Of a DNA stretch of 64,000 nucleotides, positions 42,755-51,877 are shown in pieces. The DNA is taken from NCBI RefSeq assembly GCF_013407185.1, contig NZ_CP026995.1, positions 1,633,913-1,697,912 on the forward strand, written 5' to 3'. Under the pieces are notes generated by a model that saw nothing but the letters and a program-made list of their open reading frames with translations, ran no database searches and had not been told where the DNA came from. The stretch is from Nitrosopumilus ureiphilus. GTDB lineage: Archaea; Thermoproteota; Nitrososphaeria; Nitrososphaerales; Nitrosopumilaceae. The stretch's first letter is position 1. Every line of letters begins with the position of its first letter. Both the position numbers and the translations under genes were made by a program.

Positions 42755-43954
42755 ATGACTCAAAAAGGAATTCTTGCATTTTCTGGAGGACTTGATACTT
42801 CAGTAGTTGTAAAATATTTGCAAGAAGAACATGACATGGATGTCATTACAGTAACAGTGGATGTAGGACAATGTGATGACAGTAAAAAAATTGCAGCCAA
42901 AGCAAAAAAGCTTGGCGTAAAAAAACACTACAACATTGATGCTAGAAAAGAATTTGTAAGAGATTACATTTTTCCATCAATTAAAGCAAACGCTCTTTAT
43001 CAGAAAAAATATTGTCTTGCAACAGCTCTTGCGCGACCATTAATTGCAGAAAAAGTGTTAGAGATTGCAAAAAAAGAAAAAGTAACTTCACTTGCACATG
43101 GATGTTCAGGAAAAGGAAATGATCAAGTTCGTTTTGACATCACATTACGTTCTGGTTCAGATCTTCCAATCATAGCTCCTATACGAGACAAAAATTTGGA
43201 TAGAGAAACTGAACTAAAGTTTGCAAAAAAACATGGGATAGAAATTGATGCTGTTGCAAAAAGATTCAGCATTGATCAAAATTTATGGGGACGTGCAATA
43301 GAAGGAGGAGTACTTGAAGATCCATACAATGAACCACCTGATGATGCATTCATTTGGGTTAAAACAAAAAATTTGCCTGATAAACCATCATACTTGGAAA
43401 TTAAATTTGAACAAGGAATTCCAATTGAAGTTGATGGAAAAAAATTAGAATCTCAAAAACTCATCGAATACATTAACAAAAAAGCAGGTGATGCAGGAGT
43501 TGGAATAATTGATCATATTGAAGATAGAGTTGTTGGAATCAAATCCAGAGAAGTGTATGAGACTCCAGCTGCTGTCTGTCTAATTGAAGCTCACTCAGAT
43601 TTAGAAAAAATGGTCCACACAAAACATGAAAACAAGTTCAAATCATTAATCGATGATGAATGGGCATATTTGGTATATTCCGGACTTTGGCAAGATCCAC
43701 TAAGAGCAGATCTAGATGGATTTATTGAGGAATCACAAAAACCAGTTTCTGGAACAGTGAAACTCAAGATGTTCAAAGGAAGTCTCAGAGTTGTTGGAAG
43801 AAAATCAAATAATTCATTGTACAGTCATAAAATTGCCACATATGGTACAGAATCGACATTTGATCAAAGATTGGCCAAAGGATTTGTAGAATTATGGGGA
43901 ATGCAGTCAACAGAAGCTAATAAATTACAAAAGAAAAGGTCAACAAAAACATGA
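42755..43954 (+). CDS. argG: Argininosuccinate synthase
   Basis: 399 residues with the N-type ATP pyrophosphatase loop AFSGGLDTSVV at the start, plus AHGCSGKGNDQVRFD and TPAAVCLIEAH. It joins citrulline and aspartate at the cost of ATP to AMP, the penultimate step to arginine. It is first in a plus-strand cluster with LysW and the carrier-bound acetyl/aminoadipyl pathway enzymes. The lysW1 start overlaps its stop (ATGA at 43951), which ties the upstream LysW pair to arginine. Confidence 0.95.
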   Translation: MTQKGILAFSGGLDTSVVVKYLQEEHDMDVITVTVDVGQCDDSKKIAAKAKKLGVKKHYNIDARKEFVRDYIFPSIKANALYQKKYCLATALARPLIAEKVLEIAKKEKVTSLAHGCSGKGNDQVRFDITLRSGSDLPIIAPIRDKNLDRETELKFAKKHGIEIDAVAKRFSIDQNLWGRAIEGGVLEDPYNEPPDDAFIWVKTKNLPDKPSYLEIKFEQGIPIEVDGKKLESQKLIEYINKKAGDAGVGIIDHIEDRVVGIKSREVYETPAAVCLIEAHSDLEKMVHTKHENKFKSLIDDEWAYLVYSGLWQDPLRADLDGFIEESQKPVSGTVKLKMFKGSLRVVGRKSNNSLYSHKIATYGTESTFDQRLAKGFVELWGMQSTEANKLQKKRSTKT

Positions 43955-44118
43955 ACTGCCCAGAATGTGATGCAACACTAAACATCCCAGACGATGCCTC
44001 AGTTGGAGAAATTGTCTCCTGTCCTGATTGTGGCGCTGACTTTGAAATCTCAAAAAAAGACGGATCAAATGTTGAGCTTAAACAAGCAGAAAGTGTAGGC
44101 GAAGACTGGGGAGAGTAA
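43951..44118 (+). CDS. lysW: LysW amino-group carrier protein, copy 1
   Basis: A 55-residue acidic protein with a zinc ribbon (CPEC at 3-6, CPDC about residue 25) and the C-terminal tail EDWGE. The terminal Glu is the residue whose gamma-carboxyl is joined to the amino group of the substrate in LysW systems. It carries glutamate (arginine route) or aminoadipate (lysine route) during chain modification. It overlaps argG and the ligase gene at both ends, so these are co-translated. By context this copy probably serves arginine synthesis. Confidence 0.92.
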   Translation: MNCPECDATLNIPDDASVGEIVSCPDCGADFEISKKDGSNVELKQAESVGEDWGE

Positions 44119-44975
44119 TGTCAAAAGTCTGTATCGTATTTGATCGCCTAAGAGCGGAAGAGAAGATGCTCCAAAAAGAAGCATCAGATCTTGGACATGA
44201 TACAGTAATGCTTGATGCAAAAATTACTCAAATAAACACAGATAGTAAAAAAGAAGACTATGACTTGGGCGATGTTGTTCTAGAAAGATGTGTCAGTTAT
44301 TTCAGAGGGCTTCACTTTACTGCAAGTTTAGAATTTTTAGATGTTCCGGTATTAAATAAATTTCAAGTTGCAAACATTTGTGGAAACAAAATGTTTATGA
44401 CTCTACTTTTAAAAAAAAATAACATTCCAACACCAAAAACATATTTTTCATTTTCAAGTGAGAGTGCAGCTGAGAATTTAGAAAAAGTAGGATTCCCTCT
44501 AGTCATCAAACCGGTAATAGGAAGTTGGGGAAGAGGAGTAATGCCATTAAAAGACAAAGATACCATGGAGGCAGTTTTTGAAATTAGAGACATTACTGAT
44601 AGCCCACATGACAGAATTTACTATTTGCAAGAATTAATCAAAAGACCACCAAGAGACATCAGGATAATTACAGTAGGAGATGAGCCTATTGCTGCAATGT
44701 ATAGAAAATCTTCAGGCGGTTTTAAAACAAATATTGCACTTGGTGCAGATCCTGAACTCTGTGAGATCACAAAAGAGATGGAGGATATGGCAGTTAAAGC
44801 ATCAAAAGCAATGGGCGGAGGAATATTGGGCATTGACATGATGGAAGACGATCAAAAAGGACTAGTGGTGCACGAAGTGAACAATACAGTTGAATTCAAG
44901 GGATTGGCAAGAGTCTCACAAAGAAACATACCAAAAGAAATGGTAGAATTTGCTCTAAACTACGTTAGGAAATAA
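44118..44975 (+). CDS. LysW ligase, probably glutamate-specific (ArgX-like)
   Basis: 285-residue ATP-grasp ligase of the LysX/RimK family. The ATP-binding core includes PLVIKPVIGSWGRGV. The metal and substrate region is LVVHEVNNTVEFKGLARVSQ. It attaches an amino acid to the terminal Glu of LysW. The stretch after NNT (VEFKGLARVSQRNI) differs from the second ligase (TEYKNTVRVCQVDI), which looks more like characterised lysine-type LysX. Location between argG and argC also favours glutamate. Specificity is inference. Confidence 0.8.
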   Translation: MSKVCIVFDRLRAEEKMLQKEASDLGHDTVMLDAKITQINTDSKKEDYDLGDVVLERCVSYFRGLHFTASLEFLDVPVLNKFQVANICGNKMFMTLLLKKNNIPTPKTYFSFSSESAAENLEKVGFPLVIKPVIGSWGRGVMPLKDKDTMEAVFEIRDITDSPHDRIYYLQELIKRPPRDIRIITVGDEPIAAMYRKSSGGFKTNIALGADPELCEITKEMEDMAVKASKAMGGGILGIDMMEDDQKGLVVHEVNNTVEFKGLARVSQRNIPKEMVEFALNYVRK

Positions 44976-45003: not shown

Positions 45004-46050
45004 ATGAAGGTAGGTGTTGTTGGAGCATCAGGTTATGTAGGTGGGGAGACACTTCGTCTGCTTGTTAATCATCCAGATGTTGAGATCGCCATGGTTACAT
45101 CAAGACAACATGTTGGAGAATATCTCCATAGAGTCCAACCAAGTTTGAAAGGATTTACCGATCTGATGTTTTCTGAATTAGATTATGATAAACTAACTGA
45201 TCAGTGTGATTTAGTTTTCACTGCTGTTCCTCATGGAACTGCAACTGAAATTGTAAAGGCCCTCTATGACAGAGGAATCAAAGTTATTGATTTGAGCGCA
45301 GATTATAGATTACACAATCAGGATGCATATGACAAATGGTATGGCTGGGAACACCCACATCCAGATTATTTAGCAAAATCAGTTTTTGGAGTACCTGAAT
45401 TACATCGAGAAGCAATTAAAAAAGCACAGCTTGTTTCTTGCCCAGGATGCATGGCAGTAACATCGATGTTAGCACTTGCTCCATTAATTCGAAATGACAT
45501 TATTGATACTGAACACATTATAGTTGATTCCAAGATTGGTTCTTCTGGTGCAGGCTCTGGTTCTGGAACTGCACATGCAATGAGAGCAGGAGTAATTAGA
45601 CCATACAAACCCGCAAAACACAGACATACTGGTGAAATTGAACAGGAACTAAGCGAAATTGCGGGACATAAAATTCGTGTTTCAATGAGCCCACATGCAG
45701 TAGATGTAGTTCGTGGAATTTTATGTACAAATCACACATTCTTGAAAAAAGATATTGATGAAAAAGAATTGTGGAAATTATATAGACAAACTTATGGTGA
45801 AGAAAGATTCATCAGATTAATTCGAGATAAAAAAGGACTATACAAATTCCCAGATCCAAAATTCTTAGTTGGTTCAAACTTTTGTGATATAGGATTTGAT
45901 TTGGATGAAGACAATAATAGATTAATTGCATTATCTGCATCAGATAACTTGATGAAAGGTGCAGCAGGTTCAGCCATTCAAAACATGAATGTAATGTGCG
46001 GTTTTGATGAAATGGATGGACTCAGAAACACACCACTAACTCCTGTTTAG
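45004..46050 (+). CDS. argC: LysW-linked gamma-glutamyl/aminoadipyl phosphate reductase
   Basis: 348-residue semialdehyde dehydrogenase. The NADP loop is VGVVGASGYVGGETLRLL, the catalytic Cys lies in VSCPGCMAV and the His in RHTGEIEQELS. It reduces the LysW-bound acyl phosphate to the semialdehyde. A single copy probably serves both arginine and lysine synthesis (ArgC/LysY), as known for Sulfolobus. It is followed by the kinase after two bases. Confidence 0.92.
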   Translation: MKVGVVGASGYVGGETLRLLVNHPDVEIAMVTSRQHVGEYLHRVQPSLKGFTDLMFSELDYDKLTDQCDLVFTAVPHGTATEIVKALYDRGIKVIDLSADYRLHNQDAYDKWYGWEHPHPDYLAKSVFGVPELHREAIKKAQLVSCPGCMAVTSMLALAPLIRNDIIDTEHIIVDSKIGSSGAGSGSGTAHAMRAGVIRPYKPAKHRHTGEIEQELSEIAGHKIRVSMSPHAVDVVRGILCTNHTFLKKDIDEKELWKLYRQTYGEERFIRLIRDKKGLYKFPDPKFLVGSNFCDIGFDLDEDNNRLIALSASDNLMKGAAGSAIQNMNVMCGFDEMDGLRNTPLTPV

Positions 46051-46052
46051 AA

Positions 46053-46856
46053 ATGATCACAATCAAAATTGGCGGAAGTGTAGTAGATAATTTACACCCA
46101 TCTACAATTGCAGATATTAAAAAAGTTGCAGAGTCAGAAGGAGTCATTTTAGTTCATGGTGGAGGAAAAGAAGTTACAAAAGTTTGTAAACAACTTGGAA
46201 AGGAACCAAAATTTGTTACATCCCCAAGTGGAATCAAAAGCAGGTATACAGATAAAGAAACTGCAGAGATTTTTACGATGGTAATGTCTGGAAGAATAAA
46301 CAAGACCATTGTACAAATGCTTCAAAAAAATGGAATTAATGCAATTGGCCTTTCAGGAGTTGATGCAAAAATCATTCAAGCAGACAGAAAAAAGAAGCTT
46401 CTCATAGTTAACGAAAAAGGCAGAAAACAAGCAATTGACGGCGGATATACAGGCAAAATTACCGATATCAACTCAAAATTCATCAAATTACTATTAGAGC
46501 AGGGATTAACACCCGTTATTTCACCCATTGCAATAAGCGAGGAATCAGAATTTCTCAATGTTGATGGAGACAGAGCTGCAGCATACGTGGCAGGCAAAGT
46601 TGGCAGTGACAAAGTATTATTCATTACAAATGTAGATGGATTACTAATGGAGGACAAACTTGTTACAAAGTTAACATTAGCAGAAGCAAAAGAGATCAGA
46701 CCAAAAATAGGACCTGGAATGGAAAAAAAGATTTTAGCATCTACAGAAGCATTAGATATGGGTGTAAAAGAAGCATTGATTGCAAATGGTCAAAAAGAAA
46801 ATCCAATCTCTGCGGCAATTGCACATGATAATTGTACGGTGATTGAACATGAGTGA
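46053..46856 (+). CDS. argB: LysW-linked glutamate/aminoadipate kinase
   Basis: 267-residue amino acid kinase with IKIGGSVVDN at the start, VHGGGKEVT, and FLNVDGDRAAAYVA for ATP/Mg binding. It phosphorylates the side-chain carboxyl of the LysW-bound substrate (ArgB/LysZ). It starts two bases after argC/lysY, and the aminotransferase start codon overlaps its end by eight bases. One kinase is likely shared by both pathways. Confidence 0.92.
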   Translation: MITIKIGGSVVDNLHPSTIADIKKVAESEGVILVHGGGKEVTKVCKQLGKEPKFVTSPSGIKSRYTDKETAEIFTMVMSGRINKTIVQMLQKNGINAIGLSGVDAKIIQADRKKKLLIVNEKGRKQAIDGGYTGKITDINSKFIKLLLEQGLTPVISPIAISEESEFLNVDGDRAAAYVAGKVGSDKVLFITNVDGLLMEDKLVTKLTLAEAKEIRPKIGPGMEKKILASTEALDMGVKEALIANGQKENPISAAIAHDNCTVIEHE

Positions 46857-48030
46857 AGATCAATTTATGGGAAATCTCTATCAGAGATTTCCAGTTACAG
46901 TTGAGAAGGGAAAAGGATCACATGTATGGGATGTAGACGGAAAAGAATACATTGATTGTATGGGAGGATATGGAGTCGCATTAGTAGGCCATCAAAATCA
47001 AAGAATCAACAATGCAATCAAAGAACAGATTGATAAAATTATTACAGTTCACAGTTCTTTATACAATAAGACAAGAGAAGAATTTTTGAAAATATTAATC
47101 GGATTAGCTCCTAAAGGACTTACACAAGTTCACCTAAACAACAGTGGTGCAGAAGCAATAGAAGCTGCAATAAAGTTTGCAAGAAAATTTACTGGTAAAA
47201 AAGGAATGGTTGCAATGAAGGGATCCTATCACGGTAAATCATTTGGTGCGTTATCATTAACATTTAATCCAAAATACAAAAAAGCTTTTGAACCACTAGT
47301 TGAGAAAGTTTCTTTTGCGTCTTTTGGAGACATTGAATCACTTCGTTCAGCAATTGATGATGACACAGCATTTGTAATTTTAGAACCAATACAAGGTGAA
47401 AGCGGAATTATTGTTGCACCAGAGGGATTTTTGCAAGATGTACGAAAACTTTGTGATGAAAAAGGAATTCTGTTAATTTTTGACGAAATACAAGCTGGTT
47501 TAGGAAGAACCGGACGATTATGGGCATGTGAACATTGGAATACTGCACCAGATATTTTGTGTCTTGCAAAAGGAATTGCAGGCGGCGTTCCAATGGGCGC
47601 AACGCTTGTAAGACCAGACATACTTGCTTCAATGAGCAAGGGAGAACACTCTTCAACATTTGGTGGAAACCCATTATCATGTGCAGCAGGAATTGCAGCA
47701 CTCAAAGCATTGACAGAAGATGGTTTAGTTGAGAATTCAGAAAAGATGGGTAAAATATTCAGAGAAGGCTTAGAGAAACTAAAAGAGAATCACCACATGA
47801 TTAGGGAAATTCGCGGTAAAGGATTAATGATAGGAATAGAGATGAAATTTGAAGTTAAAGACATACTTATGGGGTTGATGAAAAAAGGCGTTCTGATGTT
47901 ATATTCTGGAAGGAACATTCTACGAATTCTTCCACCGCTAGTGATTTCTGAAGAAGACATAACAAAAGTTTTACATGCTCTAGATTCTGTACTTAGTGAA
48001 GAGGAGCAAAAAAAAGATGTACAAGGATAA
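46849..48030 (+). CDS. argD: LysW-linked ornithine/lysine aminotransferase
   Basis: PLP class III aminotransferase. I start it at ATG 46849 (MSEDQFMGN, 393 residues) rather than the TTG at 46843. The PLP lysine lies in CLAKGIAGGVPMGA, the cofactor Asp in LIFDEIQAGLGRTG. It transaminates the LysW-bound semialdehyde (ArgD/LysJ). It overlaps the kinase gene by eight bases and the regulator by 14 bases, so the operon is tightly coupled. Confidence 0.92.
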   Translation: MSEDQFMGNLYQRFPVTVEKGKGSHVWDVDGKEYIDCMGGYGVALVGHQNQRINNAIKEQIDKIITVHSSLYNKTREEFLKILIGLAPKGLTQVHLNNSGAEAIEAAIKFARKFTGKKGMVAMKGSYHGKSFGALSLTFNPKYKKAFEPLVEKVSFASFGDIESLRSAIDDDTAFVILEPIQGESGIIVAPEGFLQDVRKLCDEKGILLIFDEIQAGLGRTGRLWACEHWNTAPDILCLAKGIAGGVPMGATLVRPDILASMSKGEHSSTFGGNPLSCAAGIAALKALTEDGLVENSEKMGKIFREGLEKLKENHHMIREIRGKGLMIGIEMKFEVKDILMGLMKKGVLMLYSGRNILRILPPLVISEEDITKVLHALDSVLSEEEQKKDVQG

Positions 48031-48535: not shown

Positions 48536-49720
48536 ATGTCAACGATTTCAGTAATGAAAGATCCGAATCACTATGCAAACATCTACAATGCATATGACAA
48601 AAATCCAAAGAAGATCAGAGTATTAGATAGTACTCTAAGAGAAGGAGAACAACATCCAGGGGTATCGTTTACAAACAAACAAAGAATTCAGATTGCGTGG
48701 ATGTTAGATTATTTTGGAGTAGATCAAATTGAAATATCACCAGTTGTTTCAAAGGATCACAAAGAAGCGACTAAGACAATCATCAAACAGGGATTAAAGG
48801 CAGATATTGTTTCTCATGGACGTGCACTAAAAGAAGACATTGACATTTCATTAGATTGTGATGCTAAATGGTGTGCAGCTTATTTAGGAATTTCAGATAT
48901 TCATCTAAAAGACAAATTACGTATTTCACGAGAAGAAGCACTAAGAAGATCAGTTGAAACAGTAGAGTATGCAAAATCTCATGGTCTAAAAATTAGATTT
49001 ACAGTTGAAGATGGTAGTAGAGCAGAACCGGAATTTTTAATCAAAGTTTGTAAAGCAATTGAAGAAGCAGGTGTTGACAGAATTAGTCTTCCAGATACAG
49101 TTGGAATATTGCGTCCAATTGGAATGTACAATTTTGTTAAGAAAGTAAGAGATGTAATAGACGTCCCATTAGATGCACATGTTCATAACGATATTGGATT
49201 TGCAGTAGCAAATGCATTTTCAGCATGTGATGCAGGAGTGGATCAGATTCACACTACTATTGATGGAATTGGGGAAAGAACAGGAATTCCACCCCTTGCA
49301 GAAGTAGCAGTTGCATTGACATATCTATACAAATCGCCAAATGATTTCAGATTGGATATGTTACTAGATCTTTCAAGATTGATTGAAGAATATACAACAA
49401 TCAAACCATATGACTCAAAACCAATTGTTGGTTCATCAGCATACAAACATAAGGCAGGAACACATCTTGCAGCCATTCTCAGAAACCCAGCAGCATATGA
49501 GCCTATTCCACCCAGGGCAGTTGGAAATCGAAGAAGAATTGTCTTTGGAGAACTTGCAGGAAAGACAGGTGCTGCCTATTTGATGTCATTATTAGGACTT
49601 GAGAAAGACGATGATAGTGCAAAAGCAGTAGCAGCTGGATTAAAGGGTCTCAGAATGGGAGATCTTATAGAAATACCACTCGAAGATAGACTTGAAAAAA
49701 AGATAATTAATGATAAATAA
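48536..49720 (+). CDS. lysS: Homocitrate synthase (LeuA-like)
   Basis: 394-residue HMGL-like barrel. The active-site block is RVLDSTLREGEQHPGVSF, with DAHVHNDIGFAVANA for metal His residues and HKAGTHLAAILRNP. It condenses acetyl-CoA and 2-oxoglutarate, the first step of the aminoadipate route to lysine. A TATA-like TTTATATC at 48519-48526 is 31 bases before an internal ATG (48554, MKDPNHYANIYN), so that later start may be the true one. The second LysW follows at once, tying this half of the cluster to lysine. Confidence 0.85.
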   Translation: MSTISVMKDPNHYANIYNAYDKNPKKIRVLDSTLREGEQHPGVSFTNKQRIQIAWMLDYFGVDQIEISPVVSKDHKEATKTIIKQGLKADIVSHGRALKEDIDISLDCDAKWCAAYLGISDIHLKDKLRISREEALRRSVETVEYAKSHGLKIRFTVEDGSRAEPEFLIKVCKAIEEAGVDRISLPDTVGILRPIGMYNFVKKVRDVIDVPLDAHVHNDIGFAVANAFSACDAGVDQIHTTIDGIGERTGIPPLAEVAVALTYLYKSPNDFRLDMLLDLSRLIEEYTTIKPYDSKPIVGSSAYKHKAGTHLAAILRNPAAYEPIPPRAVGNRRRIVFGELAGKTGAAYLMSLLGLEKDDDSAKAVAAGLKGLRMGDLIEIPLEDRLEKKIINDK

Positions 49721-49742: not shown

Positions 49743-49910
49743 ATGTCAAAATGTGAAGAATGTGATGCAGAAATTTCCATCCCTAGTGATGCACTTGAGG
49801 GAGAAATTGTAACATGTCCGGAATGTGGCGCAAGTTTTGAATTAGAAAAAAGTTCAGACGGTTTCCAACTAAAGCCTGCCCAAACGGTTGGCGAGGATTG
49901 GGGACAGTGA
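49743..49910 (+). CDS. lysW: LysW carrier protein, copy 2, ending in Gln
   Basis: A 55-residue protein from ATG 49743 (MSKCEECDAE); the earlier in-frame ATG at 49710 adds a nonconserved tail. The zinc ribbon CEEC/CPEC and the acidic body match LysW copy 1. Its C-terminus is EDWGQ, not EDWGE: the last codon is CAG (49905-49907) before TGA. The terminal Glu is the attachment site in known LysW proteins, so a terminal Gln needs either deamidation or different chemistry, unless the base is an error. The next gene starts within its stop (GTGA). Confidence 0.88.
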   Translation: MSKCEECDAEISIPSDALEGEIVTCPECGASFELEKSSDGFQLKPAQTVGEDWGQ

Positions 49911-50749
49911 GTCCTGACGTTACTATTCTTTACGATACCATCCGTTGGGAAGAAAAGGCCCTACTAGAAGCAGGTAAAAAAAATAACATCAACATCCAGA
50001 TGGTTGATTGTAAGAAGCTAGCATTAGATTTAGAAAAAAAACCTGAAGATTACGGAGTAGTTATTCAGAGATGTGTAAGCTATTACAGGAATTTACATTC
50101 AACTGCAGCTCTTGAAGGATTAGGAGTCAAAGTTATCAATTGTCTCAACACAGGGGTTTTTGCAGGAAATAAATTATTTACACATATGTTACTAAAGAAA
50201 TTTGGAGTTCCAACACCAGATGCGACAGTAGCTTTTTCAAAAGAGGCAGCCTTGGAAGCATTAGAAACACAAGGATTTCCCAAAGTTATCAAACCCACTG
50301 TAGGAAGTTGGGGAAGGTTAATTTCAAAACTTAACGACAGAGATTCAGCCGAAGGCATTATTGAAAGTAGAGAAAACATGTATCCAATATACCAAATACA
50401 TTATCTAGAAGAATTTGTAAAAAGACCACCAAGAGACATCAGAGCCATAATGGTAGGAGATAAAATAGTTGCAGCAATATACAGAAATTCAAAACATTGG
50501 AAGACAAATATGGCACTTGGCGGAGAAGCAGAGTCATGCAAGGTCACATCAGAAATGGAAGAGATGTGCATAAAGGCAAAAAATGCAGTTCAAGGAGATA
50601 TTGTAGGTGTGGATTTGATGGAAAGTGATGAAAAAGGATTGGTTGTACACGAAGTAAATAACACTACAGAATACAAAAACACAGTCAGAGTTTGTCAAGT
50701 AGACATTCCATCATTAATGCTAAATTATGCTCTAAATATTGAAAAATAA
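49907..50749 (+). CDS. lysX: LysW-aminoadipate ligase (LysX)
   Basis: ATP-grasp ligase of 280 residues when started at GTG 49907, which overlaps the LysW2 stop (GTGA); a TTG at 49898 is an alternative. It contains PKVIKPTVGSWGRLI and VVHEVNNTTEYKNTVRVCQ, the latter resembling the substrate motif of lysine-type LysX. It should attach 2-aminoadipate to LysW. Position after homocitrate synthase and before LysK supports lysine synthesis. It is about as long as, but clearly diverged from, the ligase at 44118. Confidence 0.85.
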   Translation: MSPDVTILYDTIRWEEKALLEAGKKNNINIQMVDCKKLALDLEKKPEDYGVVIQRCVSYYRNLHSTAALEGLGVKVINCLNTGVFAGNKLFTHMLLKKFGVPTPDATVAFSKEAALEALETQGFPKVIKPTVGSWGRLISKLNDRDSAEGIIESRENMYPIYQIHYLEEFVKRPPRDIRAIMVGDKIVAAIYRNSKHWKTNMALGGEAESCKVTSEMEEMCIKAKNAVQGDIVGVDLMESDEKGLVVHEVNNTTEYKNTVRVCQVDIPSLMLNYALNIEK

Positions 50750-50752
50750 GAA

Positions 50753-51877
50753 TTGACCAATCACCTATCAGAATCAAGATTTGCAGTAAAGATGCTAGAG
50801 AAAGCACTCAGACTCTACACACCATCACTTAGCGAAAAACCATTAGCAGAATTTTTAGCTGACAAGTGTGATGACTTGGGATTTGAAGACATAGAAATTG
50901 ATGAAGTTGGGAACGTTATTGCAAAGAAAGGCACAGGATCTCCAAAAATAATGTTATGTGGTCACATGGATGTGGTACCAGGAAAAGTCAAAGTTCGAAA
51001 AGAAGGAGATTCACTTTATGGAAGAGGAGCATCAGATGCAAAAGCACCATTGATGGCAATGTTGTTTGCAGCAGCATCAATTCAAAATAACAATGGAACT
51101 ATAATTTTTGTCGGAGCTGTTGATGAAGAAGGAAATGCAACAGGAATTAAAAATCTCGTTAAAAAAGAAATGGGAATTGATTATGCAATTTTTGGAGAGC
51201 CTAGTGGAATCAACCAAGTAACAATTGCATACAAAGGGAGATTAGCCATTAATCTCAAAATTAGCGTAGATGATAGTTCACATGCAAGTGCACCATGGCT
51301 TTCAAAAAATGCCATTCATGAATCAATGATTTTTGCAAGAGAACTCAAAGAAAGATTAGAAGAAAATCAAGAAGATAGATCCAAAGGAATGCAGTTAACT
51401 TCATCAATGACTGAAATTAGAGGAGGTACTAGTCATAACATTACACCAAAAGAATGTGAAACAACTTTCGATATTAGAATTCCAGTAGACATGAACTGTA
51501 AAACAATTGAACAAAAGATTGCAACGTTAGTTAAAGAAATTTCTCAAAAAAGAGAGGTGGAGGCATTTTATTCAATTCTTGATGAGACAGAACCATTTGA
51601 GGCACCTCATAATTCACCACTAGTTAGAGCATTGACATTAGGCATTCTAGAAGAAACACAATCAAGAGCAACACTAATCAGAAAAACAGGCACTGGAGAC
51701 ATGAATGTTTTAGGAAATCAATGGGAGATTCCTGTGGTCACATATGGTCCAGGAGATCCTCATGAAGCGCATACAATTGATGAAAAAGTATCAATTGAAG
51801 AATACCTAAAGGGAATAGAAATCTTAAAGAAAACTCTACAGCATTTAAAAAGACTTCATGATAGAAAGATGCAGTAA
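50753..51877 (+). CDS. lysK: LysW-lysine/ornithine carboxypeptidase (LysK)
   Basis: 374-residue M20-family metallopeptidase, TTG start four bases after LysX. Metal and catalytic residues are visible in LCGHMDVVPG, GRGASDAKAP and VDEEGN, then FGEPSG. It releases lysine or ornithine from LysW at the end of the carrier pathway. A single copy is present, so it probably serves both routes. Its stop overlaps the next start by one base, but that next gene (diphthine synthase) is functionally unrelated. Confidence 0.88.
   Translation: MTNHLSESRFAVKMLEKALRLYTPSLSEKPLAEFLADKCDDLGFEDIEIDEVGNVIAKKGTGSPKIMLCGHMDVVPGKVKVRKEGDSLYGRGASDAKAPLMAMLFAAASIQNNNGTIIFVGAVDEEGNATGIKNLVKKEMGIDYAIFGEPSGINQVTIAYKGRLAINLKISVDDSSHASAPWLSKNAIHESMIFARELKERLEENQEDRSKGMQLTSSMTEIRGGTSHNITPKECETTFDIRIPVDMNCKTIEQKIATLVKEISQKREVEAFYSILDETEPFEAPHNSPLVRALTLGILEETQSRATLIRKTGTGDMNVLGNQWEIPVVTYGPGDPHEAHTIDEKVSIEEYLKGIEILKKTLQHLKRLHDRKMQ

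Follow-up and report, generated by a model that had tools for sequence, protein, structure and literature searches.

Carrier proteins of the LysW/ArgW type are described from Thermus, Sulfolobus, Thermococcus, and haloarchaea. They possess zinc-ribbon Cys pairs and an EDWG motif, are served by a LysX ligase with a GSWGR motif and by LysZ, LysY, LysJ, and LysK, and end in a gene-encoded Glu that receives the substrate. The GSWGR motif of LysX recognises the LysW tail, and LysK cleaves LysW-gamma-CO-NH-lysine, freeing lysine. In the haloarchaeon Natrinema gari, the argW(E54A) mutation abolished arginine synthesis and produced an auxotroph (PMC10433800), so the terminal carrier residue is chemically needed. 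Pup of actinobacteria is, like LysW, a small protein that forms its bond via the gamma-carboxyl of a C-terminal Glu. It is encoded with Gln or Glu depending on the species, the Gln form needs deamidation, and a single enzyme, Dop, carries out both isopeptide cleavage and the deamidation of Gln-form Pup (PMC8599861). The proteins and enzymes of Pup/Dop/PafA are unrelated to those of the LysW system, and Pup tags for degradation whereas LysW carries amino-acid intermediates.

The window, the whole 64,000-nucleotide stretch analysed here, encodes two such carriers, and all features named below lie on the + strand. LysW1 (43951..44118; NF041070, 92.7 bits) ends in EDWGE. LysW2 (49743..49910; NF041070, 90.2 bits, cut-off 75) has two Cys-X2-Cys pairs and an encoded C-terminus of EDWGQ; its translation, MSKCEECDAEISIPSDALEGEIVTCPECGASFELEKSSDGFQLKPAQTVGEDWGQ, begins MSKCEECDAE and finishes PAQTVGEDWGQ. 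The terminal Gln codon is CAG (49905..49907) and the stop codon is TGA (49908-49910). Translation confirmed both tails as given in the preliminary description. The NF041070 match, the EDWG motif, and an adjoining LysX/ArgX with GSWGR make LysW2 a member of the LysW/ArgW carriers, yet in place of their gene-encoded C-terminal Glu it has CAG (Gln). The cysteines of the zinc-ribbon pairs (C4, C7, C25, and C28) are invariant in an alignment of 17 LysW proteins. Only two EDWG[EQ]* sites occur in the genome to which the window belongs (one contig, 2,171,418 bases), those of LysW1 and LysW2, and an HMM search of the same genome likewise returned two LysW genes only.

LysW1 adjoins LysX1, an ArgX-type ligase (44118..44975; TIGR02144, 294.8 bits) for which we infer a role in arginine synthesis from the neighbouring arg genes. 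Downstream are a LysY/ArgC reductase (45004..46050; TIGR01850, 413.5 bits), assumed to serve both carriers, a LysZ/ArgB kinase (46053..46856), the sole member of its family over the cut-off in the genome, and a LysJ/ArgD aminotransferase (46849..48030; TIGR00707, 442.2 bits). A protein of the homocitrate/isopropylmalate synthase family (48536..49720) precedes lysW2 and is a LysS candidate by its context; it reaches 377 bits with TIGR02146, below the cut-off of 413.55. Models of 2-isopropylmalate synthase outscore those of homocitrate synthase for this protein, which stays under the cut-off of both. The partner of LysW2 is LysX2, an ATP-grasp ligase with a GSWGR motif (49907..50749; TIGR02144, 327 bits, cut-off 275.6) with the relatives 3vpd, 1uc8, 5k2m, and 3vpb. 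Its GTG start codon, at 49907, takes the last G of the lysW2 CAG codon as its first base. This overlap was considered as a reason for the Gln and rejected, because it constrains the third base (G) only and not the choice of C or G at the first base; Gln is also retained where the genes do not overlap (CAA-TAA and CAG-TAA endings).

LysW proteins that end in Gln are found in nearly all ammonia-oxidising archaea and in a few other archaea. Of 400 genomes searched within the class, 263 have EDWGQ*, and a reversed control pattern had no match among the genomes listed in the same search. This frequency greatly exceeds chance, and the Gln is no peculiarity of a single genome. The genomes with EDWGQ* fall virtually all in families f1, f2, and f3, which we take to be the three families of ammonia oxidisers, Nitrosopumilaceae, Nitrosocaldaceae, and Nitrososphaeraceae; none belongs to f4-f24, and every LysW site listed for f4-f17 has Glu. 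When loci of named ammonia oxidisers were fetched via LysX alone, and thus blind to the last LysW residue, 68 of the 69 tails were EDWGQ, one was EDWGE, and none was anything else. The prospect, raised in the preliminary description, that close relatives all end in Glu did not materialise. Among the 25 f1 genomes without EDWGQ*, LysW2 is readable to its end in five (G078, G220, G260, G293, and G307), where it is always EDWGE; the others are incomplete or without the gene. Nitrososphaeraceae usually have Gln at the end of both LysW copies, as do three single-contig genomes with two LysW each (G109, G131, and G135), and beyond the ammonia oxidisers Gln-ended LysW occurs in f32, f37, f55 (G517), and f58 (G493). 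The Gln had been described as a peculiarity of copy 2, a view that does not hold where both copies (Nitrososphaeraceae) or the sole copy (other lineages) end in Gln.

Several further observations concern LysW sequences at large. In the family of the window, a Cenarchaeum genome (G037; loci L087 and L086, with L278, Cenarchaeum sp. SB0662, on the same contig) also has a Gln-ended LysW1, and hence two Gln-ended carriers. LysW proteins of family f32 (L079-L084) have a second metal site in which His replaces one Cys (FEHEECG or FEHDECG), resembling the LysW of Sulfolobus tokodaii in 3vpb. Two pattern matches were dismissed as chance, one in a 16-codon frame (G427, C35:44093) and one with TGG in place of the stop codon (G070, position 1952672). 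Searches of viral contigs for LysW gave no confirmed relative, and the five bacterial plasmid LysW that were translated all end in Glu, adding no Gln cases. On the Staphylococcus epidermidis plasmid NZ_CP043848.1 (L280), genes for a LysW (EDWGE), a RimK-family ligase, a hypothetical protein, and a DegT aminotransferase are consecutive, a row that looks like a LysW-borne biosynthetic cluster.

Some genomes have no other LysW than a Gln-ended one. By HMM search, five single-contig genomes possess exactly one LysW each, always ending in Gln: G070, G093, G100, G414 (presumably Caldiarchaeum subterraneum), and G517 (presumably Ignicoccus hospitalis). A search of eight one-carrier genomes for a second LysW at E<=10 yielded next-best matches that were partial and many orders of magnitude weaker, and the stretch upstream of the second ligase in one-carrier genomes contains no hidden LysW. 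Every one-carrier genome tested nonetheless has two LysX-family ligases over the cut-off. G070 is the complete genome of Nitrosocosmicus franklandus C13 (2,836,447 bases), in which argX directly follows argG and lysW1, present there in relatives, is missing. In Nitrosocosmicus (loci L284, L285, and L286), where lysW1 is gone from between argG and argX but the ArgX ligase is kept, both ligases must depend on the one Gln-ended LysW that is left. N. franklandus C13 was isolated in inorganic medium and is autotrophic, with bicarbonate as its sole carbon source (PMC6776761), and Ignicoccus is predicted to make lysine via the aminoadipate pathway (PMC2614490). Since the sole LysW of these complete genomes is Gln-ended, Gln-ended carriers must work, and in one-LysW genomes a single such carrier is probably used to make lysine as well as arginine.

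Glu and Gln interchange often at the last residue. In a quick tree built from 112 LysX proteins, where some long branches meet, the label of the partner LysW changes between E and Q 12 times, and at least eight of these changes are forced by well-supported branches. Switches are found within single genera, namely f55 g133 (G482 Glu, G517 Gln), f32 g117 (G455, G489, and G534 Glu; G509 and G529 Gln), and f1 g1, the genus of the window. Some Nitrososphaeraceae have a Glu-ended LysW2 beside a Gln-ended LysW1, and some the reverse. The last residue is E or Q in all 128 complete LysW tails; this set was partly picked by the E/Q pattern, but the tails found by HMM and via LysX were not, and they agree. 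A single base change in CAG or GAG can give a stop codon or a codon for K, A, G, V, P, R, L, D, or H, yet none of these is used. What is conserved at the end of LysW, judging from these tails, is the gamma-carbonyl common to Glu and Gln.

The enzymes that act on the carriers do not follow the switch. Across eight contrasts between Gln- and Glu-ended partners, no LysX column separates the two; the maximum is a difference in six of the eight contrasts, and the columns that differ this often show no consistent residue change. The GSWGR motif is near-invariant across the same contrasts, and within f32 g117 the LysX proteins of the Gln and Glu groups consistently differ at seven columns only. Each of 12 genomes has a single LysZ/ArgB over the cut-off. 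With one LysZ/ArgB in the genome of the window, the same kinase must act on the adducts of the Glu- and the Gln-ended carrier. The restriction to E and Q, their interchange, and the unchanged LysX together favour deamidation before gamma-linkage over attachment to the alpha-carboxyl.

We therefore favour, as the probable explanation, that LysW2 is a working carrier made as a Gln-ended pro-form, which is deamidated to Glu and then charged at the gamma-position in the ordinary way. The side-chain amide of the pro-form would be hydrolysed to Glu, LysX2 would couple alpha-aminoadipate to the gamma-carboxyl of the new Glu as in other LysW systems, and the shared LysZ, LysY, LysJ, and LysK would complete lysine. 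The mature LysW2 would thus carry Glu, and after the first turn it would remain in this form. A Pup-like deamidation had been suggested in the preliminary description. Deamidation is the reading best supported by comparison. Pup's own enzymes are missing, with no member of the Pup ligase/deamidase family PF03136 in any of 20 genomes with Gln-ended LysW; a control search detects this family in Corynebacterium. The alternation of Gln and Glu at the attachment residue, common to Pup and LysW, is a likeness of logic and not of descent.

By analogy with Dop, we tentatively propose LysK as the maturing enzyme: the hydrolase that releases lysine or ornithine may also strip the Gln amide. The LysK of the window (50753..51877; TIGR01902, 275.9 bits, cut-off 163.1), an M20 [LysW]-lysine hydrolase and putative LysW-Gln deamidase, matches the structure of Thermus LysK (5xoy) over nearly its full length (E 4.9e-52) and keeps the M20 catalytic motifs. 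The Gln side chain has the same gamma-carbonyl as LysW-lysine, with ammonia as the leaving amine, and could be a LysK substrate. LysK exceeds the cut-off in all 25 genomes searched, and the sequences read have the M20 catalytic motifs. Counting against LysK, we know of no M20 peptidase that is a primary-amide deamidase, and the enzyme recognises the amino acid being released, of which Gln has none. We likewise know of no report that LysK deamidates LysW-Gln. If it does, an activity already present would let distant LysW lineages drift between Glu and Gln.

The amide could instead be removed before charging by a dedicated amidase that is neither LysK nor Dop. Such an enzyme would fit the same comparative evidence as deamidation generally, but it seems rather unlikely: reading the ORFs of ten loci revealed no amidase beside lysW, the Pup ligase/Dop family is missing from 20 of 20 genomes, and at least eight independent E/Q changes would require the enzyme to have been present beforehand in distant lineages. 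A direct displacement, in which LysX or another enzyme turns the Gln gamma-CONH2 and aminoadipate into the gamma-adduct and ammonia without a free Glu, also demands E or Q and would dispense with a separate deamidase. Although we know of no ATP-grasp ligase that displaces an amide directly, and LysX has no adaptation in the Gln lineages, which makes this route improbable in our view, Dop has been suggested to use ATP to activate the amide of PupQ (PMC8599861).

Attachment through an alpha-linkage to the terminal Gln, whose side chain would then never react, was among the options of the preliminary description and seems no less improbable. LysX does belong to the RimK family (TIGR00768, 282 bits), and RimK makes alpha-linked Glu extensions at C-termini. 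With such a linkage, further residues should turn up at the end of LysW and the ligases should be altered; E and Q are the sole residues seen, they interchange freely, and LysX is unchanged. One LysZ/ArgB for both carriers, moreover, points to a single adduct geometry, and the known LysW geometry is gamma. That LysW2 is never charged (as a decoy, regulator, or relic) and that the Glu-ended LysW1 serves both ligases, a use of copy 1 that had also been considered earlier, would suit the genome of the window, which does keep a Glu-ended LysW1. It cannot be general, given several complete genomes without any Glu-ended LysW, one of them from an autotrophic isolate, and LysW2, conserved from end to end, keeps its place beside LysX and LysK, so we regard it as very improbable. 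The simplest of the earlier suggestions, a sequencing or assembly error that turned GAG into CAG, is refuted and has virtually no probability left, as the same residue is conserved across hundreds of genomes in independent assemblies and is encoded by CAA besides CAG. That LysW2 has kept its Gln for so long points to some advantage, which lies outside the account of maturation by deamidation given above.

LysW, LysX, and LysK are known families. In the open literature (that is, outside subscription papers), we found no Gln-ended LysW, nor its wide conservation or use as the sole carrier. Lysine and arginine synthesis in globally abundant nitrifiers should then depend on a carrier whose gene omits the reactive residue, which implies either an unrecognised maturation step in archaea or a LysW chemistry that is broader than thought. 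If LysK is the deamidase, the logic of Pup and Dop would have been invented a second time, independently, with one enzyme for both release and activation. The metabolic model of N. maritimus gap-fills the LysW steps (PMC6038301); annotations and metabolic models that assume Glu, this one among them, would need a maturation step.
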